A DNA stretch of 64,000 nt from Flammeovirgaceae bacterium. Lineage in GTDB: Bacteria > Bacteroidota > Bacteroidia > Cytophagales > Cyclobacteriaceae. The translations under genes and the position numbers were made by a program. The number at the start of each line of letters is the position of its first letter. The first letter of the stretch is position 1. The DNA lies in NCBI GenBank assembly GCA_027487845.1, contig JAIYCV010000039.1, positions 1-64,000 of the forward strand, in the 5' to 3' direction. The notes under the pieces were generated by a model. It made no database searches and was not told the DNA's origin. It saw nothing but the letters and a program-made list of their open reading frames with translations. Of this stretch, positions 33,258 to 46,512 are shown in pieces.

Positions 33258-34004
33258 TTAAAACAGATTGAGGGGCAAAAGTGAGTTTTCTTTTATAAAA
33301 GCATCTTTTCCATTCCATTTGACTTTAAACCAAACATCGTACTTCCCTTCAATGGCTAATTTATGGCCTTCGTTAGCGATCGAAATTACAGACGATCCTG
33401 ACGAAGGGCCTTCCATAATATACGTGTTGGATGCAGCAATGATGCCTGTTGATGGTGGAGCACTAAAATTTACCTGCCAAAAAAGAATTCCCAAAAAGAA
33501 GAGCAGAAAAAATCCTGCAAAAACCGGTCGCTGTTTCTTTGCCTTTTGAAAAACAATTACGCCTAATACCATGCAATTAAAAGCAATTAATGCCCATGTT
33601 AACAGAACTCTTTGTTCCTGAAAAAAACGCATAATCAACTCCTTTGAGTAAGGATCGTTATAGCCTTCGAGGTTATTTTTAGTGGCGAGTTCAGCTATTT
33701 TTTCATCCGTTTGCGCATCGTGTGTTAGTTTACTATAGCCACTTAAGTAATAGAGAGACGTACTCAAATGGCCGAGTCCTTCCTGAATAAAAGCCATTTT
33801 AAGCAGCATCGAAGGGGTGTACATTTTGTTGGAGAACAGTTCATGGTAAAGATCAAACGATTGAGTATAGAGTTTTGCTGTAAAAAGTGAGTCAGCTTTT
33901 TTGAGTTTATTGTCGTTATTCTGGGCAGCGGCACCAAAAGCGAACCTAAAAACCAATAGCAATAAAAGGATAAATTTTAAAGACGTGGTTTGCATATTTT
34001 TCAT
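33258..34004 (-). CDS. TPR-like and SH3-like membrane protein (BatE-like)
   Basis: 248 residues. A signal peptide (to about residue 27) is followed by a helical repeat region with KKADSLFTAKLYTQSFDLYHEL that looks like a tetratricopeptide pair. Two hydrophobic helices come next, near 135-152 and 160-180. The last part is a bacterial SH3-like domain (MEGPSSGSSVISIANEGHKL to VKWNGKDAFIKENSLLPL). The same order occurs in BatE-like proteins of aerotolerance operons, but no Bat genes are near. The gene lies back to back with tRNA-Lys, whose promoter overlaps its start. Confidence 0.65.
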   Translation of the reverse strand: MKNMQTTSLKFILLLLLVFRFAFGAAAQNNDNKLKKADSLFTAKLYTQSFDLYHELFSNKMYTPSMLLKMAFIQEGLGHLSTSLYYLSGYSKLTHDAQTDEKIAELATKNNLEGYNDPYSKELIMRFFQEQRVLLTWALIAFNCMVLGVIVFQKAKKQRPVFAGFFLLFFLGILFWQVNFSAPPSTGIIAASNTYIMEGPSSGSSVISIANEGHKLAIEGKYDVWFKVKWNGKDAFIKENSLLPLNLF

Positions 34005-34019
34005 ATTAAGTTACCTTTG
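33989..34019 (+). promoter_or_regulatory. Promoter of tRNA-Lys
   Basis: TTTG at 33989..33992 and TACCTTTG at 34012..34019 are separated by 19 bases, a perfect match to the Bacteroidota -33/-7 promoter. Transcription would begin around 34025..34028, about 40 bases before the tRNA. The -33 box lies within the first codons of the divergent SH3-protein gene. Confidence 0.7.
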
Positions 34020-34066
34020 CGTCCTCAATAACGGAAAAGCCTTTTAAATGGGCAAATTCGTGGATT

Positions 34067-34139
34067 GATCTCGTAGCTCAGCTGGTAGAGCATTACACTT
34101 TTAATGTAGGGGTCCTGGGTTCGAATCCCAGCGGGATCA
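34067..34139 (+). tRNA. tRNA-Lys (anticodon TTT)
   Basis: A complete 73-base cloverleaf. The acceptor stem GATCTCG pairs with CGGGATC with one T-G wobble. The anticodon stem TTACA/TGTAG encloses the loop CTTTTAA, giving anticodon TTT. The T stem CTGGG/CCCAG encloses TTCGAAT. The discriminator is A139 and CCA is not encoded. It stands at the left border of the restriction-modification region, but no copy of its 3' end was found further right. Confidence 0.97.
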
Positions 34140-34145
34140 CAGAAC

Positions 34146-34187
34146 AAAAAGCCTAAACAACTTCCAATTAGTAGTTTAGGCTTTTTT
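34146..34187 (+). terminator. Terminator behind tRNA-Lys
   Basis: AAAAAGCCTAAAC at 34146..34158 pairs with GTTTAGGCTTTTT (34174..34186) to form a 13-bp stem with a 15-base loop, followed by further T residues. This is a strong rho-independent terminator for the tRNA transcript; the A-rich left arm means it could also act on the minus strand. Confidence 0.85.
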
Positions 34188-34346
34188 ATTTTTTGACTTG
34201 CGGACGCATAAGCGGACATACTTATTTTTTGATCTACGTATTTGTAAAAAGTATTTTGATAGCATCGCAGCAATAAACTCATCTGTAACTTTCATTTTTG
34301 TACATACTTCTTAAAAGCATTTCTTTCGCTCTTTCGGAATTTTCAC

Positions 34347-34715
34347 TTAAGCAAACTTCATTTGGTTAGGTTGAACAATTGACGCTAAAAGCTGATCGAT
34401 CTCTTGATAGAAAGGTTCGTTCGTTAAATGAACCACAGGCCTATTCATAAGTTGGGCAACAACGCTTTCGTAATGCTGAAGAACAACAACAGAGTTTTTA
34501 AGCGACATCAATTCTTCTTTAATCTTCAGCGAGGAATCCTTATCAGGCTTGTACTGGAATTTGAAATCAAGGTAAACCGGAAGTTCACCTACTAACCGAT
34601 TAATGATTAAAGCACGGTGCTCTTTAATAATTTCCCTTAGCTGTACTAAAAGAACTTCTTGGTTGGTATCAATGAGATTTTTTGAGCCTAATAGGGCACT
34701 TTTTACTGTTTTCAT
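34347..34715 (-). CDS. Hypothetical protein at the edge of the RM region
   Basis: 122 residues from ATG 34715 (MKTVKSALLGSKNLID); seven additional upstream codons are possible from 34736. The protein is mostly predicted helical, with VLLVQLREIIKEHRALIINRL and a hydrophobic segment near residues 71-90. It has no membrane signal and no motif I recognise. It is divergent from hsdR, with 187 bases between them, so it could share a control region with the restriction operon. Function unknown. Confidence 0.5.
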   Translation of the reverse strand: MKTVKSALLGSKNLIDTNQEVLLVQLREIIKEHRALIINRLVGELPVYLDFKFQYKPDKDSSLKIKEELMSLKNSVVVLQHYESVVAQLMNRPVVHLTNEPFYQEIDQLLASIVQPNQMKFA

Positions 34716-34902
34716 AATTACTAAAATATTTAGCAATAGTAGTTAAAAACTATTTATATTAGTAATCCGCCATCGTAAAAATTTTAATTCTTCGAAATTC
34801 TCATCGAAATGACCAAACAGGTGCCAACACTCATCAAAATGTCATGAGCTCTTTACTTAATCTATAAGCCTTTACTATATTTATCCTAATCATGGCTAGG
34901 TT

Positions 34903-37701
34903 TTGAAAAACGAGAAGTCAACCCGTAAGGAAATCATTGATATTAAGCTAAATGCTGCCGGATGGAATTTATCTGACCGAAGTCAGGTGGTGGAAGAGTA
35001 TGATATTCAAATCGGATTACCTGTCGGAGTTCAGGAACCAAGTACTCCCTATCAAGGGCATCAATATTGTGATTATGTTCTTTTTGGGCGCGATGGCAAG
35101 CCATTGGCTGTTGTTGAGGCAAAGAAAACCGCTAAAGATGCCGCAGTTGGTCGTGAGCAAGCAAAACAGTATTGCCAGCATATTCGCGATACGCAAGGGT
35201 ATGACCTGCCACTTTGCTTTTATACCAATGGCCATGATATTTTCTTTTGGGATCTCGGCAACTATCCACCGCGCAAAGTATTCGGTTTCCCTACACGCGA
35301 TGACCTTGAACGCTATAAATACATTCAAAAGTCGAGGCGGTCGTTGGCTGATGAATTAATCAATACCCGCATTGCCGGACGCGACTATCAACTTCAAGCC
35401 ATCAGAGCAGTGTTGGAAGGTGTTGAAAAGAAGAGGCGCAAGTTTTTGTTAATCATGGCAACAGGTACGGGCAAAACGCGAACGTGTATTGCGTTGGTAG
35501 ATGCCTTAATGAAAGGCGGGTGGGCAGAACGTGTTTTGTTTCTCGTGGATAGAATCTCATTACGTGACCAGACCTTAAATGAATTTAAGATGCACCTTCC
35601 CAATGAGCCGCGCTGGCCAAAGGAAGGAGAATATGAAATCTCGAAGGATAGAAGGATTTATGTGTCCACCTATCCAACCATGCTCAATATCATTCGCGAT
35701 GATGAAAATACTCTATCTCCTCACTTCTTTGATTTGATTGTGGTAGATGAAAGTCATCGTTCCATTTACAATACCTATCAGGAAATCTTAGATTACTTCA
35801 ATACAATCACTCTTGGATTAACGGCCACGCCAACCGATGCCATTGACCACAACACATTCAAATTATTCGAGTGCGAAGATGGGGTGCCCACATTTGCGTA
35901 TTCGTACGATCAAGCGGTAAACAACATTCCTCCTTACCTCTGCAACTTCCAGGTGATGAAAATCAAAACGAAGTTTCAGGAGGAAGGAATCAGCAAGCGA
36001 ACGATCTCGCTCGAAGATCAGAAGAGTTTGATGCTGGAGGGAAAAGAAGTGGAAGAGATCAACTTTGAAGGCACGGACATTGAAAAGACGGTTGTCAACA
36101 AAGGAACGAATGCACTCATCGTTCGGCAGTTTATGGAAGAGTGTATTAAAGATCCCAACGGAGTGCTTCCGGGCAAAACGATTTTCTTCTGTATGAGCAT
36201 GAACCATGCGCGAAGAATTGAACAGATCTTCGATGCGCTCTATCCAGAATATAATGGAGAACTTGCTAAGGTGTTGGTGTCTGATGATCCCCGAGTTTAT
36301 GGTGTCGGTGGTTTACTCGATCAATTCAAAACCCGAGACATGCCTCGCATTGGGATCAGTGTAGATATGTTGGATACTGGTATTGACATTCGTGAGCTTG
36401 TCAATCTTGTTTTTGCAAAGCCTGTCTATTCTTATACCAAGTTCTGGCAAATGATTGGTAGAGGAACTCGAATGTTAGAACCAACGGCTATGAAGCCTTG
36501 GTGTACTGAGAAAGATACCTTCTTGATTCTCGATTGCTGGGATAACTTTGAATACTTCAAGATCAATCCGAAAGGGAAGGAGCTTCGATCACAAGTACCT
36601 TTACCCGTTCGTTTGTTTGGCTTTCGATTAGATAAAATTGAGAAGGCACTTGAACTGGGCAAGCAGGAATTGGCGGCCAAAGAAATCGGAAGATTGCGCA
36701 AGCAGATAGATGCTCTTCCTCAAAACTCCGTTACCATCATGGATGCAAAGTCGTCCTTGCAGCGTCTTGATGATGAAAACTTCTGGGCAAAGCTGGATGA
36801 TAAGAGAATTGACTTTCTCCGCACAATCGTAAAGCCTTTGCTAAGAACAGTCTCCAACACCGATTTCAAAGCCATGCGTTTTGAAAAGGATATTGTGGAA
36901 GTATCACTGGCTCATTTGAATGAAGAGAAAGATAAATTTGAAGCAATTAAAGACAGCATCATTGAAGAGATTGCCAAACTGCCACTTTCTATTAATACCG
37001 TTGCTTTACAAGAAGAGTTAATCCGGAAAAGCCAGGCCAATCATTTCTGGGCAACCGTAACGGAAGAAGGTTTTGATCAACTGATTGACAAGCTAAGTCC
37101 GTTGATGAAATTAATTGAATCGTTCGTTGTGCCGCTTGGCCCTGCTGCCTTCGATCTTAAAGATGAGCTTTATGCCAAAGAGTTTGTAGAGTTTGGCCCG
37201 CAGCATGAAGCCTTGAGTGTGGCCAGGTATCGAGAGCTGGTGGAGAAAAGAGTAAATGCGTTGGTTTCTCAAAATCCCATTCTTCAAAAGATAAAAGACG
37301 GAAAATCAATAAATGAATACGAAGCCGAAAAGTTAGCCGACCAGCTTCACGAAGAACACCCGCACATCACGATTAATTTATTGAGGAGAGTTTACAATCA
37401 TAAGAAGGCTGAGTTACTTCAATTCATTAAACACATTTTAGGAATTGAAATTCTCGAAAGTTTCCCTGAAACCGTGTCAAAGTCTTTTGAGAAATTTATT
37501 TTCGAACATAGTAATTTATCAAGTCGCCAATTACAGTTCCTAGAATTGTTAAAAGGCTATATCCTTGAAAAAGGTGACTTAACAAAAAAGAATTTAATTG
37601 AATCACCCTTTACAATGCTACATCCAGAGGGCATTCGAGGAGTTTTCAATCCGAAACAAATTGAAGAAATTTTCGGGTTTATACAACGACTTGTGGCTTA
37701 G
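34903..37701 (+). CDS. hsdR: Type I restriction enzyme, R subunit (EcoEI-like)
   Basis: 932 residues from a TTG codon; an ATG just upstream is out of frame and closed by a stop. The N-terminal nuclease domain has D57, E72 and K74 (CDYVLFG and VVEAKKT). Helicase motifs follow: Walker A MATGTGKT with K191, Walker B VDESH, motif III LTATP, and motif VI QMIGRGTR near 520. The C-terminal 250 residues fit the EcoEI_R_C region that contacts the methylase. With HsdM and HsdS it would translocate and cut unmodified DNA. Unusually, two unrelated genes separate it from hsdM. Confidence 0.95.
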   Translation: MKNEKSTRKEIIDIKLNAAGWNLSDRSQVVEEYDIQIGLPVGVQEPSTPYQGHQYCDYVLFGRDGKPLAVVEAKKTAKDAAVGREQAKQYCQHIRDTQGYDLPLCFYTNGHDIFFWDLGNYPPRKVFGFPTRDDLERYKYIQKSRRSLADELINTRIAGRDYQLQAIRAVLEGVEKKRRKFLLIMATGTGKTRTCIALVDALMKGGWAERVLFLVDRISLRDQTLNEFKMHLPNEPRWPKEGEYEISKDRRIYVSTYPTMLNIIRDDENTLSPHFFDLIVVDESHRSIYNTYQEILDYFNTITLGLTATPTDAIDHNTFKLFECEDGVPTFAYSYDQAVNNIPPYLCNFQVMKIKTKFQEEGISKRTISLEDQKSLMLEGKEVEEINFEGTDIEKTVVNKGTNALIVRQFMEECIKDPNGVLPGKTIFFCMSMNHARRIEQIFDALYPEYNGELAKVLVSDDPRVYGVGGLLDQFKTRDMPRIGISVDMLDTGIDIRELVNLVFAKPVYSYTKFWQMIGRGTRMLEPTAMKPWCTEKDTFLILDCWDNFEYFKINPKGKELRSQVPLPVRLFGFRLDKIEKALELGKQELAAKEIGRLRKQIDALPQNSVTIMDAKSSLQRLDDENFWAKLDDKRIDFLRTIVKPLLRTVSNTDFKAMRFEKDIVEVSLAHLNEEKDKFEAIKDSIIEEIAKLPLSINTVALQEELIRKSQANHFWATVTEEGFDQLIDKLSPLMKLIESFVVPLGPAAFDLKDELYAKEFVEFGPQHEALSVARYRELVEKRVNALVSQNPILQKIKDGKSINEYEAEKLADQLHEEHPHITINLLRRVYNHKKAELLQFIKHILGIEILESFPETVSKSFEKFIFEHSNLSSRQLQFLELLKGYILEKGDLTKKNLIESPFTMLHPEGIRGVFNPKQIEEIFGFIQRLVA

Positions 37702-37731: not shown

Positions 37732-38277
37732 ATGGAAAATGACTTTAAAGGAAAATCTGAAGAGGCCTTAAAATTTTTGGCTTGGGGATACAAAACCGCC
37801 ATTGTTCTCTCTATCCTCGGGCTTTTGTTTTCAGCAGGCTATCTATACATTTTTATTAGCCAGTCTCACCCCGATTTAATAAAAATTGAAACGATGACTG
37901 GTTTCAGTGCTGAACGAAGAATGGCATTGTTGTCCACTGGTATTTTTGTGGCCATGGCATTTGGATTTCTTGGATTTGCTCTCTTTTTAATACAGGCCAA
38001 GGGAGAGGTGGAAGGTTCGTTCGAGGCAAAGGACTTCAAAATCACCATTGCTCGAATGTCGCCTGGGCTATTTGTAATTATGTGCTCTACCATAATAATT
38101 ATATTTTGCTCTACATTTCCAATTGAATATACGGTTCGTCAAATACCGGTTAGTCAAACAGATTCAACAAAAAATTCATTTCAAGTAGCACCTGATGTTA
38201 ATTTAGATTTTGCTACTGGTCAAACGTATGACTCTGCCAATAAAGTTGACACTGTCAATAAGAAAAAAAGAAAGTAA
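37732..38277 (+). CDS. Three-helix membrane protein inside the type I RM operon
   Basis: 181 residues. Hydrophobic helices lie near 22-46 (AIVLSILGLLFSAGYLYIFI), 68-90 (GIFVAMAFGFLGFALFLI) and 111-130 (LFVIMCSTIIIIFCS). A polar tail of about 50 residues ends in KKKRK. No signal peptide and no recognised domain. It starts 30 bases after hsdR and ends five bases before the protease gene, so it is cotranscribed with both. A physical link with the exported protease encoded next to it is plausible but not shown. I do not recognise its family. Confidence 0.6.
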   Translation: MENDFKGKSEEALKFLAWGYKTAIVLSILGLLFSAGYLYIFISQSHPDLIKIETMTGFSAERRMALLSTGIFVAMAFGFLGFALFLIQAKGEVEGSFEAKDFKITIARMSPGLFVIMCSTIIIIFCSTFPIEYTVRQIPVSQTDSTKNSFQVAPDVNLDFATGQTYDSANKVDTVNKKKRK

Positions 38278-38282
38278 TATTT

Positions 38283-39905
38283 ATGAGAGCAAGAATGATA
38301 TTTCCTATCGTAGGTTTTTGCATGATCAGTTCTTTCTGTAGTAGTCAGCAGTCTTGCAATACCTTTCAAGAGCAAAAAATTTCCTTGGATGCAATGAGAC
38401 TCAAATTCAAGAGCGAAGTAAATACTTTCAAACAAATGGAAATATTTAATGCCTACACTGAAAAATCGGGTATTGCTTCAGAACAATTGAAACAGTGCAT
38501 TTTGGACAGACAAATTGATAAAACCAGTTTTGCCGGACTCCAGTATTATTATACTCTCGGAAAAACTTTATATGAGGCTGGTAAATGTGATGAAGCCGCT
38601 GAGGTATTTAATTCTTGTTTAGCAAACCCCAATGTTGGTAAGATCTTAATAAAGGGTAGTACATATGCTCAGGTTATTAACCAGTCATTTCTTTCCTGCT
38701 TTAATAAAGAGACCGCACATGATAGAAGCGCCACTATGGGCTGGTTTATTACCTATCGCGGAAAATCGGGCAGCTATCTTGCCTCTTTCTTTGAAAACCT
38801 GCCTGATAAGTCTGTTTTGGATGGCGCCCCTTTGTTTGCAGATGAAATAGAGTCAATTCTGGAAAGGAGAATTGAACCAACGGATACTATCAATAAATCG
38901 CTCATCAAGAAACTCAGCGGAGACACGAGTTTTGTTATGAGCATACCATTTATCTTCATTCCCATTGGTCATGATTTTATTACTGATACGTTGCAACAGC
39001 TTAAAAACCTTCCCGATCCATTAGATTCCGAAACCACATTGAGTAATGAAAAAATGATGGAAGACATTTCATTTATCAACCTTCATTCTAAAAGACTAAT
39101 CTCAATGTATTTTGACTCTATAAAAATTGATAAAATCAGAATGCCAGTTTATATGGTCGGTGGAGCTAATAGTCCAAAGGGTCTGCAAGAGTTTCTTGAA
39201 ATTTGTAAGAAGATGCACTTCCGAGTTGGACAAAGTGTTGCTTATTATATGCCCCTTGATCAAAGTATTGTTGTTTGGATGTCGTCTGGTGGTGGTACAA
39301 TTGTTCATGAAATTGGACATGCGTTGATGGATCACGACTTCTCCGCAGCTCCTTTTTGGTTAAATGAGGGAATTGCAAGTTTGTACGAGGAGGCCGATAG
39401 GTATGGGAATCCTATTGATAACTATAGGATTATTTATATTCAGGAAATGTTCAAAAGAACACAGAATTTTATGAAAATTTCTGCGTTGATGAAAGTGGAC
39501 AGTAGGTACCAACAAGATCAGTCATCGGCTACAATGATCAATGCCTACGCAAGATATTTCTGCAAGTTTATTGTTGATGAATTTGGAAAAGAAACATTAA
39601 TCGAAATCTACAAGGAAAATCGCAAACATGTAAAGAATGATATTAGTTCGCTTGATATTATTTTGAGATTTACAGACATGACTGAAATCGAACTTCAAAA
39701 AAGATGGCAGAATTATTTATTAGAAAGAACGATACCAAATAGATGGAGGTACTTACTAGAACATATTTCTAGAAATCCTGTCTTTCTGCATGGACTCGAA
39801 TATTCAGAAATCCCCGCTGATGAGAAATCCATCGAGCAATTCAACAAAAATAGAGAAAAAGACCTACACCTTTTGCGCAAGGAAATGAGACGCAATCGTC
39901 ATTGA
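38283..39905 (+). CDS. Exported MA-type metalloprotease (peptidase MA-like) inside the RM operon
   Basis: 540 residues. The N-terminus (MRARMIFPIVGFCMISSFCSSQQ) is a signal peptide, with a possible lipobox ISSFC. A helical repeat region with YYTLGKTLYEAGKCDEAAEVF follows near residues 80-105. The zinc site is VHEIGHAL with His342, Glu343 and His346, and the third ligand is probably Glu362 in PFWLNEGIASLYE, the pattern of the peptidase MA-like group. All catalytic residues are present. The gene ends 14 bases before the likely hsdM ATG. An exported protease in the middle of a restriction operon is odd; the target is unknown. Confidence 0.8.
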   Translation: MRARMIFPIVGFCMISSFCSSQQSCNTFQEQKISLDAMRLKFKSEVNTFKQMEIFNAYTEKSGIASEQLKQCILDRQIDKTSFAGLQYYYTLGKTLYEAGKCDEAAEVFNSCLANPNVGKILIKGSTYAQVINQSFLSCFNKETAHDRSATMGWFITYRGKSGSYLASFFENLPDKSVLDGAPLFADEIESILERRIEPTDTINKSLIKKLSGDTSFVMSIPFIFIPIGHDFITDTLQQLKNLPDPLDSETTLSNEKMMEDISFINLHSKRLISMYFDSIKIDKIRMPVYMVGGANSPKGLQEFLEICKKMHFRVGQSVAYYMPLDQSIVVWMSSGGGTIVHEIGHALMDHDFSAAPFWLNEGIASLYEEADRYGNPIDNYRIIYIQEMFKRTQNFMKISALMKVDSRYQQDQSSATMINAYARYFCKFIVDEFGKETLIEIYKENRKHVKNDISSLDIILRFTDMTEIELQKRWQNYLLERTIPNRWRYLLEHISRNPVFLHGLEYSEIPADEKSIEQFNKNREKDLHLLRKEMRRNRH

Positions 39906-39919
39906 CTAAATTATATGCA

Positions 39920-41602
39920 ATGCTCCAATCCAACCCCATCCTAAAATCCCTCATCGACAAACTCTGGAACAACTTCTGGAGCGGTGGCATCTCCAACCCA
40001 CTCACCGCTATCGAACAAATCACCTATCTCATTTTCATGAAGCGGCTGGACGACCTTGAAGCCAAGCGTGAACGTGATGCCGAGTTCACCGGAGAAAAGT
40101 ACACTTCGCGCTTTAGCGGAAAATATAAAGTGCCCGGCAGCAGCGATAGCGTGAGTAAAGAGAAACTGCGCTGGACTAACTTCAAGCGCATGCCAGCCGA
40201 GGAGATGCTATTACATGTGCAAACAAAAGTGTTTCCGTTTTTGAAGGAGCTCAACGTTGTGTCCCCCTCGGGGGACGAGCGGAGCGGAGGGGGGCCATTT
40301 ACAAGATCGATGAGCAACGCAGTCTTCATCATGCCCAAGCCATCATTACTGGTAGAAGCCATCAACATCATTGAACAGATTTTTGCGGAGATTGAAAAGG
40401 ATGCTAACGAAGGTGGTCATGCTTTTCAGGACATACAAGGCGATGTATATGAAATGCTGTTGAGTGAAATTGCTTCTGCCGGAAAGAACGGACAGTTCCG
40501 CACACCACGACACATCATTAAACTAATGGCCGAACTTGTTGCACCCCAACTTGGTCAGCGCATTGCAGATCCTGCCTGTGGCACGGGTGGATTTTTACTG
40601 GCTGCGTATCAATACATGCTCACCGACCTTACACGTAAGGCATTATCAAAATCTAAATCTCCCCTCTCCCAGAGGAGAGGGGCCGGGGGTGAGGCCTTAA
40701 CCACAGACGAAGATGGCTTTGAGCGCGGCACCACCAGCGCAGTAGTTACCGAGAAAGTAAAAAAGATTTTAGAAGACAGCTTCTATGGCTTTGACATAGA
40801 CACTACGATGGTACGCCTTGGCCTCATGAACCTGATGATGCACGGCATCGACAACCCGCACATCGATTACAAAGACACGCTTAGCAAGAGCTTTAATGAA
40901 GACAGCCAGTATGATGTGATTATGGCCAATCCACCCTTCACTGGCAACATTGACAAAGGCGATATTAATGAAGGCCTCAAGCTGCCCACCACCAAAACCG
41001 AACTGCTCTTTACCGAGCGCATCTTTACCATGCTGAAGATGGGCGGCACCGCAGCCGTGATTGTGCCGCAAGGCGTATTGTTTGGCAGCGGCAATGCCTT
41101 TGTAATGGCGCGCAAGAAAATGGTGGAAGAAGCAGAATTGAAAGCCGTGATTACCTTGCCCAGCGGAGTGTTTAAACCCTATGCCGGGGTGAGCACCTCT
41201 ATTTTGATTTTCACCAAAGGAGGCGAAACCCAGCACACCTGGTTCTACGATCTGCAAAGCGATGGATATAGTTTGGACGACAAGCGCAACAAGCTGGAAG
41301 GCTATGGCGACTTGCAAGACATTGTTCAAAAATACAAGGCGCGCTTGTCCCCCTCTAGAGGGGGTAAGGGGGAGGTTTTACCCGCTGGCGGGGGTAAGGG
41401 CGTGGATCGCACCCAAAAATATTTCTTTGTGCCCAAACAAGAGCTGGTGGACAATGAGTATGATCTGAGTTTGAGTAAGTATAAAGAAGAGGTGTATGAG
41501 GAAGTGAGTTATGATTCACCAAAAGAGATTGTCAAAACTTTAACAGATCTTGAAAGCAAGATATCAATAGGACTTCATGAATTATCGGAGTTAATTAAAT
41601 GA
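39920..41602 (+). CDS. hsdM: Type I modification methylase, M subunit
   Basis: 560 residues from ATG 39920 (MLQSNPILKSLIDKLW). A TTG at 39902 overlapping the upstream stop is an alternative. The N-terminal HsdM helical domain is followed by the AdoMet motif DPACGTGGFL near 216 and the catalytic NPPF near 336, so it should be an adenine-N6 methylase. Three GC-rich palindromic segments have been inserted in frame, giving the peptides SPSGDERSGGGP, SPLSQRRGAGGEA and SPSRGGKGEVLPAGGGKG near residues 114, 247 and 476, all at loop-like positions outside the catalytic motifs. The stop overlaps the hsdS start by four bases. Confidence 0.93.
   Translation: MLQSNPILKSLIDKLWNNFWSGGISNPLTAIEQITYLIFMKRLDDLEAKRERDAEFTGEKYTSRFSGKYKVPGSSDSVSKEKLRWTNFKRMPAEEMLLHVQTKVFPFLKELNVVSPSGDERSGGGPFTRSMSNAVFIMPKPSLLVEAINIIEQIFAEIEKDANEGGHAFQDIQGDVYEMLLSEIASAGKNGQFRTPRHIIKLMAELVAPQLGQRIADPACGTGGFLLAAYQYMLTDLTRKALSKSKSPLSQRRGAGGEALTTDEDGFERGTTSAVVTEKVKKILEDSFYGFDIDTTMVRLGLMNLMMHGIDNPHIDYKDTLSKSFNEDSQYDVIMANPPFTGNIDKGDINEGLKLPTTKTELLFTERIFTMLKMGGTAAVIVPQGVLFGSGNAFVMARKKMVEEAELKAVITLPSGVFKPYAGVSTSILIFTKGGETQHTWFYDLQSDGYSLDDKRNKLEGYGDLQDIVQKYKARLSPSRGGKGEVLPAGGGKGVDRTQKYFFVPKQELVDNEYDLSLSKYKEEVYEEVSYDSPKEIVKTLTDLESKISIGLHELSELIK
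40261..40297. repeat. Palindromic insertion 1 within hsdM
   Basis: GTCCCC-CTCG-GGGGAC at 40261..40276 is a palindrome, followed by a purine-rich G-tract to about 40297. It is in frame and encodes part of SPSGDERSGGGP. GC content is far above the surrounding gene. Similar elements lie at 40661 and 41349. Confidence 0.65.
40661..40697. repeat. Palindromic insertion 2 within hsdM
   Basis: CCCCTCTCC (40661..40669) pairs with GGAGAGGGG (40674..40682) around a CAGA loop. A G-rich tail (CCGGGGGTGAGGCC) follows to about 40696. It encodes SPLSQRRGAGGEA in frame, between the conserved DPACGTGG region and the conserved EDSFYGFDID region. Confidence 0.75.
41349..41404. repeat. Palindromic insertion 3 within hsdM
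   Basis: CCCCCTCT and AGAGGGGG form a perfect 16-base palindrome at 41349..41364, followed by TAAGGGGGAGG and a second G-rich unit with CCCGCTGGCGGGGG. It encodes SPSRGGKGEVLPAGGGKG in frame before the conserved TQKYFFVPK segment. It appears to contain two joined units. Confidence 0.7.
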
Positions 41603-42825
41603 GGATACTTCATAAAAAAATTGAAGAAATAGCTGAAGTGATTGCTGGACAATCTCCTCCGTCAAGCACTTATAACAAAGAAGGAAAGGGGTTACCATTT
41701 TTTCAGGGCAAAGCTGATTACGGAGTTAAATATCCAAAGGTTAGATTTTGGTGTTCAGAGCCAACTAAGATTTCTTTACCCGATGACATACTTATTTCAG
41801 TAAGAGCTCCAGTCGGTCCTGTTAATATCAATGACCAAAAATCTTGTATAGGTCGAGGCTTAACTGCAATAAGAGTTAACAACGATATCAGTCGTGACTA
41901 TGTTTACTTCTTTTTAAAAATCAATGAATCAAGGATTGCGAAGCTTGGTGTTGGTTCAACATTTACATCGATAACTCAAAAAGATGTTAAGGCTTTAGTC
42001 ATTCCTATTCCAGATAATCTCGAAGACCAAATCCGCATAGCTAATATTTTAAGCAAAGCCGAGGCGCTGATCAGCCAGCGCAAAGAAAGCCTCCGCCTCC
42101 TCGATGAACTTTTGAAGAGTACGTTTTTGGAGATGTTTGGATTTGATTATAATAAAGAGGGTAAATGGAACATAGTTTCGTTTGGAGAGGTAATAAAAGA
42201 TTTATCTGATTATCACGCTAATGGTAGTTACGAAGCCTTGAAAGAAGTAGTTACTTTAAAAAAGGAAGATGATTTCGCACTTATGGTAAGAACAACCGAT
42301 CTTGAAAACAACAACTTCAACAAGGATTGTAATTACATCGATGAAAGAGCCTACAACTTTTTGAGTAAGTCAAAAATATTCGGAGGTGAAATAATTATTA
42401 ATAAGATTGGAAGTGCAGGTAAAGTGTATTTGATGCCCTACTTAAATAGGCCAGTCTCATTAGGAATGAACGCTTTCTTACTGCGCTTCACTGAGGCTGT
42501 GAATAATGTTTTTGTTTTTTATTTGCTTACTTCTAAATATGGCGCTGATTCAATTCAACGACATGTAAAAGGTGCAGTTACTAAAACTATTACGAAGGAT
42601 GCAGTTAGGAGTATCGCCATTCCACTCCCTCCCCTCAAACTCCAAACCCAATTCGCGCACATCGTAGAAAAAACAGAAGCCCTCAAAGCCCACTACCAAA
42701 CCAGCTTACAAGAGTTGGAGAATTTGTATGGAAGCTTGAGTCAAAGGGCGTTTAAGGGGGAGTTAAATATTAGCGATGATGAGTTGGCAATGGCGGCTGA
42801 GCCTAGTGAAAAATACAAAAAGTAA
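41599..42825 (+). CDS. hsdS: Type I specificity subunit
   Basis: 408 residues with two target-recognition domains (about 1-150 and 190-350), each followed by a conserved coiled helix (ILSKAEALISQRKESLRLLDELL near 150-175 and IVEKTEALKAHYQTSLQEL near 355-380). The second half of each domain shows the usual hsdS end motif (VKALVIPIPDNLEDQIRI and VRSIAIPLPPLKLQTQF). The two halves differ, so a bipartite asymmetric DNA site is expected; the sequence recognised cannot be predicted. The gene is intact and coupled to hsdM by an ATGA overlap. Confidence 0.92.
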   Translation: MRILHKKIEEIAEVIAGQSPPSSTYNKEGKGLPFFQGKADYGVKYPKVRFWCSEPTKISLPDDILISVRAPVGPVNINDQKSCIGRGLTAIRVNNDISRDYVYFFLKINESRIAKLGVGSTFTSITQKDVKALVIPIPDNLEDQIRIANILSKAEALISQRKESLRLLDELLKSTFLEMFGFDYNKEGKWNIVSFGEVIKDLSDYHANGSYEALKEVVTLKKEDDFALMVRTTDLENNNFNKDCNYIDERAYNFLSKSKIFGGEIIINKIGSAGKVYLMPYLNRPVSLGMNAFLLRFTEAVNNVFVFYLLTSKYGADSIQRHVKGAVTKTITKDAVRSIAIPLPPLKLQTQFAHIVEKTEALKAHYQTSLQELENLYGSLSQRAFKGELNISDDELAMAAEPSEKYKK

Positions 42826-42892
42826 TATTTTAATCATTCGAAATAGAAATTAACTGGCTGATTTACAATGTATAATAAATTTTACTTTATGT

Positions 42893-42910
42893 GTTTAGCT
42901 ATAACTAAAC
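42893..42910. promoter_or_regulatory. Candidate operator of the TAC operon
   Basis: GTTTAG (42893..42898) and CTAAAC (42905..42910) form a perfect inverted repeat with a six-base spacer, four bases before the toxin ATG. HigA antitoxins bind palindromes at their own promoters, so this is a reasonable candidate. Short arms make chance occurrence possible. Confidence 0.4.
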
Positions 42911-42914
42911 TTTA

Positions 42915-43307
42915 ATGAATAGATTTGCGTTAGAGGATATTCAGGAAGTACGAGGGATGATTCGGTTTAAGAAACTGATCGTTGACGGTACTTGCGCGTA
43001 TGATGATTTCTGTCAGCAAATAAGGGTAGACGGGAATCTCCAAAAACAACTTGTAGGAATAGTAAACAACATGAATCAGGTCGCAAATCTGAAACGTCTT
43101 CCAAAAGAAAAATTCCGAGATATAACACCATCAAAAGATCCTATTAAGGAGTTCGAAATTAAGAAAGGAGATTTGCGTTTTTATGTTATTAAAGAAGATG
43201 GGCACATAGTTGTGTTGGCTGGTAAGAAAGGCACGCAGAATGAAGACATCTCGCAGTTTAGATCAATAAAGAGAAGGTATCTGGAATCAAAAAGAATACA
43301 AGCATGA
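42915..43307 (+). CDS. HigB/RelE-like toxin of a TAC module
   Basis: 130 residues. The C-terminal half matches the HigB-like RelE fold: KKGDLRFYVIKEDGHIVVLAG, then KKGTQNEDISQFRSIKRRYL. RelE-type toxins are translation-dependent mRNA interferases. The N-terminal half, with FDKLIVDG-like strand text and a helical segment, is longer than in minimal toxins. The gene is the first of three closely packed genes, 89 bases after hsdS, and its stop overlaps the antitoxin start. Active-site residues of the family vary and cannot be assigned with certainty. Confidence 0.72.
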   Translation: MNRFALEDIQEVRGMIRFKKLIVDGTCAYDDFCQQIRVDGNLQKQLVGIVNNMNQVANLKRLPKEKFRDITPSKDPIKEFEIKKGDLRFYVIKEDGHIVVLAGKKGTQNEDISQFRSIKRRYLESKRIQA

Positions 43308-43663
43308 TGAACCGAGAAGAAATATTAAGTTCACCTGATTATTGGTTTGAGGAAGCTCAAAATGAATTATATCGTCAGGTAATTGAATATAAAGAAAAAA
43401 AGGGAATAACTCAAACTCAACTAGCAGAGCAGCTTGGCGTAAGCAAAGGTTATATCTCACAAATATTAAAGGGAGAATTCAATTATACATTGAAAAAACT
43501 CATCGAACTTTCACTGGCTGTTGGCAAAGTTCCTCAAATCGAATACAAAACAATTGCGGAAGTATTGAATGAGGACAGGCATACCTATTATTTAACAGCT
43601 GAAAAATCTGAAGTTCAAAATACTCATGAGCCTGTGTTTATTACGTTAACTTATGCTGCATAA
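43304..43663 (+). CDS. HigA-like XRE antitoxin with a C-terminal chaperone-addiction-like tail
   Basis: 119 residues from ATG 43304 (a second ATG is at 43307). The helix-turn-helix is clear: ITQTQLAEQLGVSKGYISQI near residues 36-55, followed by the dimerising helix LKKLIELSLAVGK. The last 35 residues (from about VLNEDRH to the end FITLTYAA) extend beyond the DNA-binding domain and are rich in aromatic and beta-branched residues. In characterised TAC systems such a tail makes the antitoxin depend on SecB-like chaperone. It presumably neutralises the toxin and represses the operon. Confidence 0.78.
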   Translation: MMNREEILSSPDYWFEEAQNELYRQVIEYKEKKGITQTQLAEQLGVSKGYISQILKGEFNYTLKKLIELSLAVGKVPQIEYKTIAEVLNEDRHTYYLTAEKSEVQNTHEPVFITLTYAA

Positions 43664-43673
43664 TTGATTAGCT

Positions 43674-44132
43674 ATGAATCCTAAGCCAGTACAAATTCAT
43701 TGGGCGATCAAAGAAATAAAAGAGCTCGAATTTTTTATTGATGAATTTATTGACCTAGGACCGTCATTTGATTTCAATTATACTGTGGAAATCATGCCTT
43801 TGGCAAATGAAGAAATAGTTAGATTAGGTATAAAAGTTGATTACGCAAAAAGTGACACCAAGGAGCTATTCATGAGAGGAAAGGTGGTCACTTCTTTTTC
43901 GATAAAGGATTTAAAAACATTGGTAAGGAAAACAGAAGATAATCCAGATTTTGTTGACTTGCCTGAACCCTTATGGATAGCACTATTTAGCATCGCGTTT
44001 ACTCATGCGCGAGCAATATTGTCAAGAAGCTCCGCTGGTACCAAGTATGCTCACATGTTACTTCCAGCCATTAATCCAGAAACTGAGTTTAGAAAATTAT
44101 TTGGAAACCACGTCAAGCAAAAAGAAGTTTAA
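43674..44132 (+). CDS. SecB-like chaperone of a TAC module
   Basis: 152 residues. The middle (FDFNYTVEIMPLANEEIVRL to GKVVTSFSIKDL) looks like the SecB beta-sheet. The end matches the SecB signature region: LFSIAFTHARAILSRSS, then LLPAINPETEFRKLF, compared with the SecB pattern of PYARE, an I-S-x-L-V helix and L-x-PVNFD-x-LF. The start lies 10 bases after the antitoxin stop. Position and size are as in the Mycobacterium tuberculosis HigB1-HigA1-Rv1957 system, where the chaperone protects the antitoxin from aggregation and proteolysis. Distant similarity means a profile search should confirm it. Confidence 0.7.
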   Translation: MNPKPVQIHWAIKEIKELEFFIDEFIDLGPSFDFNYTVEIMPLANEEIVRLGIKVDYAKSDTKELFMRGKVVTSFSIKDLKTLVRKTEDNPDFVDLPEPLWIALFSIAFTHARAILSRSSAGTKYAHMLLPAINPETEFRKLFGNHVKQKEV

Positions 44133-44468
44133 TTGAGTTGTTGGAAGCCCGCTTGGTGAAAGTGTATTGACATCATGCTGCCCATGCTGGTTAACAGTTT
44201 AGCAGAGCCATTGTCGAACGACAGATAAAGGGGGATTTTTAATCCTGGGTTGTGCACAGCATTAAACTACACCTCCCAGCCGACTAGTCTGAATCAGCAA
44301 CGGCTTATGAACGGCAAATGAACGGCAAATGAAGCAACTTAAACTGGATCTATCCTAGGCTATCTTTACCTTATGCTGAGGCAAAAACTGGTTCTTGCTT
44401 ATCGTTTTGGTGTTTTGTTGAGATATCTTGTTCCCAGGTATTTTTCAGCGTTTCTGCAAGAAAGTTAA
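44133..44468. other. Gene-free 336-base stretch between the TAC module and the sugar cluster
   Basis: No convincing coding sequence or RNA gene is visible. It contains an 11-base perfect tandem duplication (ATGAACGGCAA at 44307..44317 and 44318..44328), followed by a partial third copy. It could be the right scar of the defence island, but no direct repeat of the tRNA-Lys end is present. Confidence 0.5.
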
Positions 44469-44807
44469 TCAAAGCTCAAAAATTCTTTCCATCAACACCC
44501 ACTTCTCATTCGGTTTTGCAAAGGGCAACCCCTGTTGATACTTCCACATCAGCGTTTCCCACTCTTGTACCTTTGGATTTTTTAAATCTGCTTCCGACTT
44601 TAAGTCAAACGAGAAATCTTCAGTCGCTTCCATAACCATAAAGAGGCGATTGCCCGCGCGAAAGACTTCCATGCTTGTTATTCCACTATCTTTTATGCTC
44701 TTGGCTATTTCAGGCCAAATATTTTTATGATGACCTTCATATTCTGCAATAAGTGCTGGGTCGTCTTTGAGATCAAGTGCAAGACAATATTTTTTGGAGT
44801 AGCTCAT
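44469..44807 (-). CDS. L-rhamnose mutarotase-family protein (RhaM-like)
   Basis: 112 residues, about the usual length. The family pattern is present: YEGHHKNIWPEIAKSIKDSGI, YRAGNRLF-like VFRAGNRLFMVMEA, the tryptophan-rich WETLMWKYQQGLP and the final VLMERIFEL. RhaM interconverts alpha and beta anomers of L-rhamnose; homologues also act on L-fucose or serve L-sugar pathways. It is the last gene of the minus-strand sugar-acid cluster, 90 bases after the preceding SDR gene. The sugar it handles is inferred from the cluster. Confidence 0.85.
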   Translation of the reverse strand: MSYSKKYCLALDLKDDPALIAEYEGHHKNIWPEIAKSIKDSGITSMEVFRAGNRLFMVMEATEDFSFDLKSEADLKNPKVQEWETLMWKYQQGLPFAKPNEKWVLMERIFEL

Positions 44808-44897
44808 GGTTTTACTTAATATCGCTTTGAAGGTATAAGATCTTTTACTGATGAGGTCAAAATTATTTTAGACCAACCTTTTTGGTGTAACATTCAC

Positions 44898-46512
<1,615 letters not shown>

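Follow-up and report, generated by a model that had tools for sequence, protein, structure and literature searches.

A probable toxin-antitoxin-chaperone operon with a SecB-like chaperone beside a type I restriction-modification locus in a Flammeovirgaceae bacterium

The 64,000-nucleotide stretch of DNA analysed here (the window; Flammeovirgaceae bacterium, GCA_027487845.1, contig JAIYCV010000039.1, positions 1 to 64,000) carries on its + strand, at 42915-44132, a module that is very probably a type II toxin-antitoxin-chaperone (TAC) operon with a toxin of RelE/HigB type (Table 1). As the initial annotation had described, three open reading frames are tightly packed on the same strand: ORF 1 (130 aa) overlaps ORF 2 (43304-43663, 119 aa) by 4 nt, and a gap of 10 nt separates ORF 2 from ORF 3 (152 aa). 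Toxin and antitoxin genes are followed in this one packed operon by a gene for a SecB-like chaperone and, because the same order of toxin, helix-turn-helix (HTH) antitoxin and SecB-like gene recurs in relatives, the arrangement is not one of chance. Four lines of evidence speak for the proposed HigBA-type TAC, with its SecB-like chaperone and addiction tail: the predicted fold, the gene order of relatives, the statistics of the antitoxin tail and its degron-like end. Judged by sequence and structural modelling, the module appears to have the TAC features that can be tested in this way, family cut-offs excepted. The system is known in kind, and what is added here is a strongly conserved palindrome abutting the toxin start, together with the probable natural exchange of the half of the operon that comprises tail and chaperone.

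Table 1. Features of the module and of the neighbouring restriction locus, in positions of the window
Feature	Position	Strand	Basis or remark
18-bp palindrome GTTTAGCTATAACTAAAC, probable operator (perhaps promoter)	42893..42910	+	4 nt before toxin ATG
Toxin, remote RelE/HigB (Gp49-like) family, 130 aa	42915..43307	+	TIGR02683 E=4.9e-6; presumed toxicity
Antitoxin N-terminal XRE/HTH core, residues 1-82	43304..43549	+	HTH_3 E=1.3e-10 (Pfam)
Antitoxin C-terminal tail, residues 83-119, candidate chaperone-addiction (ChAD) region	43550..43660	+	tail statistics
DNA similarity to G041 ends here; antitoxin codon 87, probable breakpoint of a cassette	43564		blastn
Last three antitoxin codons Tyr-Ala-Ala, candidate ClpXP-type degron	43652..43660	+	terminal-A statistics
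SecB-like chaperone, 152 aa	43674..44132	+	predicted SecB fold
hsdS, neighbour outside module	41599..42825	+	Pfam Methylase_S; PADLOC Specificity_I
Rest of type I RM locus	hsdR 34903-37701, hsdM 39902-41602		Pfam EcoEI_R_C; PADLOC REase_I, MTase_I

The AlphaFold model of ORF 3 (pLDDT 86) has the four-stranded sheet and two helices of the SecB fold, and comparison of this model with the PDB returned SecB structures as its 19 best rows, among them Rv1957 of the M. tuberculosis HigB1-HigA1-Rv1957 system, from which the window chaperone nevertheless differs in being 5% identical to it in the structural alignment. Non-SecB structures (thioesterases, PelC, LptE and others) scored far below. The SecB-like assignment made in the initial annotation is thus borne out by the predicted fold but not by the curated SecB profiles: ORF 3 has no SecB match in Pfam or NCBIfam and does not reach the cut-off of PF02556, which finds nothing across the whole genome. 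In remote profile comparison, 21 TA-linked chaperones aligned in register with a set of nine SecB sequences (74% probability, one-to-one E=2.8e-5; at most 0.2% for 20 column-shuffled control sets), with E=3.2e-6 once four PF02556-positive Bacteroidota chaperones had joined the SecB side. The probability is lower with other sets of chaperones, at 34% with the largest, 3.5% with the seven closest sequences (shuffled maximum 1.9%) and 5% with the window chaperone alone; with a SecB-plus-bridge HMM the window chaperone gave E=4.5, and 2 of 103 family rows reached E<0.01. Searches with the single protein in genome-contig, viral-contig and plasmid collections confirmed no relative of the chaperone, and phmmer against PDB sequences yielded chance-level rows only for it. 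Profiles A3 and A1, the latter that of the toxin family, likewise gave rows at chance level.

The one PADLOC match of ORF 3, PDC-M64C (E=6.4e-9), points to a larger family. Matches to this model occur in 77 of 395 sampled genomes of the phylum, the window's genome included, and iteration from the window chaperone over the ORFs of collected loci gave 82 family members. For the 81 besides the window's own, an HTH gene was recognised directly upstream in at least 51 and not in 30, the former count being a lower bound (L078 was scored as having no HTH upstream although one is visible). As a separate observation, 26 of these 30 carry genus code g162 (L103, L129, L133, L137, L144-L148 and others) and are possibly the solitary SecB of that group. 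PF02556-positive chaperones also follow a toxin gene and an HTH gene in Bacteroidota (L149, L150 and L143). Since the toxin, the HTH protein and the SecB-like protein of L070 and L073 are all matched by PDC-M64 models, this PADLOC candidate corresponds to a TAC; PADLOC gives no description of it, and its name was absent from the literature searched. The window module shares the chaperone match with PDC-M64 (A/B/C models) but differs from it in its toxin, which matches no PADLOC model, while the toxin of G041, a genome of the same genus, matches one only at E=4e-4. The accessible text of PMC4257090 reports that 52 of 688 SecB sequences are TA-linked, that 33 TAC chaperones are missing from PF02556 and that TAC chaperones do not track taxonomy, and nine Bacteroidetes SecBs are mentioned in that of PMC4361572.

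For the first gene, which had been called HigB/RelE-like, a remote kinship held up, although no family profile was matched over its cut-off. ORF 1 matches TIGR02683 (RelE/ParE family, NCBIfam) at 26.9 of the 62.85 bits needed, and its rows in Pfam are at chance level (BofC_C 0.036; Gp49 0.062, with 13.8 of 23.9 bits). The sub-threshold TIGR02683 match is common to 19 of 21 aligned toxin homologues, one of which is matched by Gp49, and the toxin-family profile A1 reaches further proteins at E 1e-5 to 1e-4; the three of these that were checked are Pfam Gp49 proteins at E about 1e-21 or better. Through these two links the window toxin would be a remote RelE/HigB-type protein. Phmmer against PDB sequences returned no rows for it, and the viral contigs searched held no confirmed toxin relative.

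The palindrome that precedes the toxin gene has the pattern GTTTAG(T/C)TATAACTAAAC. The 38 loci compared here for the window's own TA pair, the window included, come from a relative search (25 loci, 24 used) and from genome searches. In 37 of them the 150 nt before the toxin contain a copy with up to 4 mismatches, and in 34 such a copy lies 3-9 nt from the toxin start codon, a criterion reached by 0.5% of shuffled upstreams; the reference palindrome was read from these same upstream sequences, and L200 is without a usable toxin start for this count. The window's is the sole exact site in the 4.5-Mb genome, the next best having 3 mismatches, and with up to 3 mismatches the backwards control gave 15 and 19 sites by strand, above the pattern itself (4 and 4). 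A search of 240 further genomes of the order gave no exact match; variant copies exist in some of them. None of the viral contigs searched had the exact palindrome 4 nt from an ATG. The palindrome is probably the operator of the antitoxin; a leaderless toxin mRNA, from the TATAAC that lies inside it, was also considered.

ORF 2 joins an XRE helix-turn-helix core to a tail of 37 residues (35 in the initial annotation), which contains 4 aromatics and ends in YAA. Tails could be used at 37 of the 38 loci, 21 with and 16 without a chaperone gene; L176, where the contig ends inside the antitoxin, and L177, with 113 nt after it, are left out of the tail counts, chaperone presence was assigned by HMM in G712, G725, G794 and G700, L190 and L184 have only 498 and 750 nt of sequence after the antitoxin, and the antitoxin-only matches L035, L037, L039 and L041 were kept out. 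Tails of chaperone-linked antitoxins are longer (median 57 versus 36; p 1.8e-5), more hydrophobic (fraction 0.32 versus 0.22, p 1.2e-6, with overlapping ranges of 0.21-0.39 and 0.14-0.25) and richer in aromatics (5 versus 1; p 1.1e-6), and after clustering at 60% core identity (15 versus 9) the p values are 1e-3 for length, 6e-5 for hydrophobic fraction and 1e-4 for aromatics. Core hydrophobicity also differs between the two groups, in the opposite direction (p 0.0018), and, the sequences being related, the starred branches provide just 4 independent comparisons, in most cases with every pair pointing the expected way (median p 0.125). With a hydrophobic fraction of 0.32 and 4 aromatics, the window tail exceeds the maxima of 0.25 and 3 in the 16 chaperone-less relatives, and so stands out from them by composition but not by length (37 residues against their median of 36).

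The extreme C-terminus follows the same division. A final alanine is found in 18 of 21 chaperone-linked but 2 of 16 chaperone-less antitoxins (p 1.1e-5; clustered 12/15 versus 2/9, p 0.01), the exceptions being G064, L191 and L196 among the former and L187 and G058 among the latter. In a wider TAC set of 50 distinct antitoxins (3 overlapping), 22 end in A and 11 in G, and as background 22 of 585 ORFs of 200 aa or more end in A. The genome's own tmRNA tag is GESNYAMAA, and a ClpXP-type end has been reported for TAC antitoxins in the accessible text of printed work; with its hydrophobic/alanine end, the YAA of the window antitoxin is a candidate ClpXP-type degron. Separately, one of the antitoxin-only matches (L037, 1501-1902) has an aromatic tail ending in QLA; the gene beside it resembles hsdM by eye, neither a toxin nor a chaperone gene was seen, and the locus is possibly a remnant.

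Comparison of the window with G041 suggests how tail and chaperone may travel together. The two operons share 76% identity in the toxin and 84% in the antitoxin core but 24% in the tail and 22% in the chaperone, where shuffled sequence averages 18% and 19%, respectively (chaperone maximum 25%). At the DNA level, blastn aligns them over 42892-43564 with 74% identity, starting one base before the palindrome, and reported no further match in 41001-45500. On the TA tree (37 rows) the window groups with G041 (100/98) and then with L188 (98/93), from Mucilaginibacter arboris, where the 7.6 kb available downstream contain no chaperone gene, and across this tree the chaperone state changes at least 8 times. 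The chaperone tree places the window with L195, L178, L180 and G700 (80/73, not starred) and not with G041. Tail and chaperone similarity, with core similarity removed, are weakly correlated (r 0.18, p 0.033). Replacement of tail plus chaperone between the window and G041 is, on this sequence evidence, likely but not proven. Beyond this pair, we incline, by a modest balance of the evidence, to the view that the tail, the degron and the SecB-like chaperone are exchanged in nature as one cassette: different tail-plus-chaperone halves, or none, would be joined within the antitoxin gene to a front half that stays constant (palindrome, toxin gene and DNA-binding half of the antitoxin gene), and one toxin could thereby gain different chaperone sensors, and perhaps different phage triggers, by recombination.

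The main competing account, which we consider unlikely though the strongest of the alternatives, is that the tails and chaperones of the window and G041 are orthologous and have diverged very fast, with no replacement of a cassette. The two remain alike in their first tail residues and first chaperone residues, and the AU test against a window plus G041 chaperone clade gives p just 0.013 in a set of 21 rows with long branches flagged and 0.064 in one of 57 rows (which left out L143, L197, G700 and near-duplicates). Fast divergence would however have to place the chaperone within the shuffled range beside a core at 84% identity, and to let DNA identity stop at codon 87; moreover, among six other close pairs (cores 56-89%; L198 in two), five keep 43-75% chaperone identity. 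In the sixth, G712/G843, the chaperones are 28% identical and the cores 70%. The loci of this last pair (L162, 1501-2929, and L161; G843 and G712) form a second candidate for chaperone exchange.

The initial annotation had also described the module as attached to a type I restriction-modification (RM) operon. Adjacency is evident, with hsdS ending 89 nt before the toxin gene, whereas functional coupling is not supported. RM genes (queried with the window HsdR, HsdM and HsdS) lie within 4.5 kb of 5 of the 51 TACs sampled in the phylum. They were seen at none of the 30 chaperone genes for which no antitoxin was recognised, and at none of the 25 kin loci examined (0/13 with chaperone, 0/11 without, none at G041). 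G041 and G192 belong to both the TACs and the kin loci, the flank available on some contigs is less than 4.5 kb, and kin known only from short loci are omitted. The order behind hsdS, which the initial annotation had proposed to look for in related genomes, has parallels at L143 (3670-4905), where hsdM, hsdS and one gene of 276 aa precede a TAC with a Pfam Gp49 toxin and a PF02556 chaperone, and at L082, where a TAC is flanked on one side by hsdM and a gene that resembles hsdS by eye, and on the other by an hsdR-like gene; at L073 an hsdR-like gene is upstream of the TAC. RM/TAC adjacency therefore recurs, at low frequency. That the module is a functional part of the restriction locus, a guard punishing loss of or attack on the restriction genes, would fit its position directly 3' of hsdS and these three loci, but is very improbable given the counts of 5/51 and 0/25, the module's own palindrome in the gap after hsdS and the TAC operon of G041, which sits between other genes. 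Slightly less credible still is an ordinary two-gene HigBA-like system beside an unrelated solitary SecB-like export chaperone: solitary members do seem to exist, as 30 of 81 family genes are without a recognised upstream HTH, and 16 of 37 loci have the TA pair without a chaperone gene, yet antitoxin tail and end differ systematically in the 21 chaperone loci, the chaperone gene starts 10 nt after the antitoxin, and it is in both tail and chaperone that the module departs from its nearest relative, the remainder being conserved.

Several further features of the window were noted. A tRNA-Lys gene (34067-34140) lies just left of the stretch that holds the RM locus and the TAC. Between hsdR and hsdM there are a 181-aa ORF (37732-38277) with no Pfam match over cut-off and a Peptidase_MA_2 protein (38283-39905; PF13485 E=5e-8), which together are unusual cargo within such an operon. 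In a test for an insertion site, four left-hand window genes were sought at 29 mutarotase loci (L228-L256, flank about 1.5 kb or less) and none of them was seen at any locus, and the edges 34001-34950 and 42821-44480 have no exact 13-bp repeat in common, so an island is not shown. The region 2007-27222 contains a set of eight paralogues (ORFs of 865-890 aa; five on the - and three on the + strand), which we take to resemble FtsX-type permeases.

Under the preferred reading of the module as a TAC, the toxin would be a RelE/HigB-type (Gp49-like) protein and presumably an mRNA endoribonuclease, and the XRE antitoxin would bind the toxin and, by also binding the 18-bp palindrome, keep its own operon repressed. 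The 37-residue tail would make the antitoxin dependent on the chaperone, and the SecB-like protein, by binding this tail, would shield it and the terminal YAA from ClpXP. If the chaperone were lost or titrated away, for example by phage or unfolded proteins, the antitoxin would be degraded and the toxin freed. In this scheme the gene order, the SecB fold of the model, the association of tail and end with the chaperone gene and the conservation of the palindrome come from the present analysis, and tail binding, proteolysis, toxicity and trigger are drawn by analogy from TAC systems in print. Those studied in the accessible parts of the literature surveyed are from M. tuberculosis, Methylomonas, Vibrio, Geobacter and E. 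coli. The window tail is, by eye, not evidently similar to the ChAD peptide published for the M. tuberculosis system (accessible text of PMC6377645). CmdTAC and MqsRAC of E. coli are likewise three-gene TACs with a SecB-like chaperone but have toxins of other families (ADP-ribosyltransferase and MqsR); in the accessible text of PMC9519451 and PMC11618068 they act in phage defence, CmdTAC against T4 and MqsRAC against T2.

In the accessible text of PMC5105189, ChAD/SecB pairs are grafted by experiment and specificity of the chaperones is also reported. If the cassette reading is true, nature performs the graft that was done there by hand, and the window and G041, with the same toxin core and a different sensor, could show whether the chaperone half sets the trigger of the toxin. 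Among the titles and passages surveyed, no account of a TAC from Bacteroidota was met. In the sampled genomes of this phylum, SecB-like chaperones beyond the reach of Pfam are common; many belong to TACs, and a PADLOC candidate without any description is built on them.
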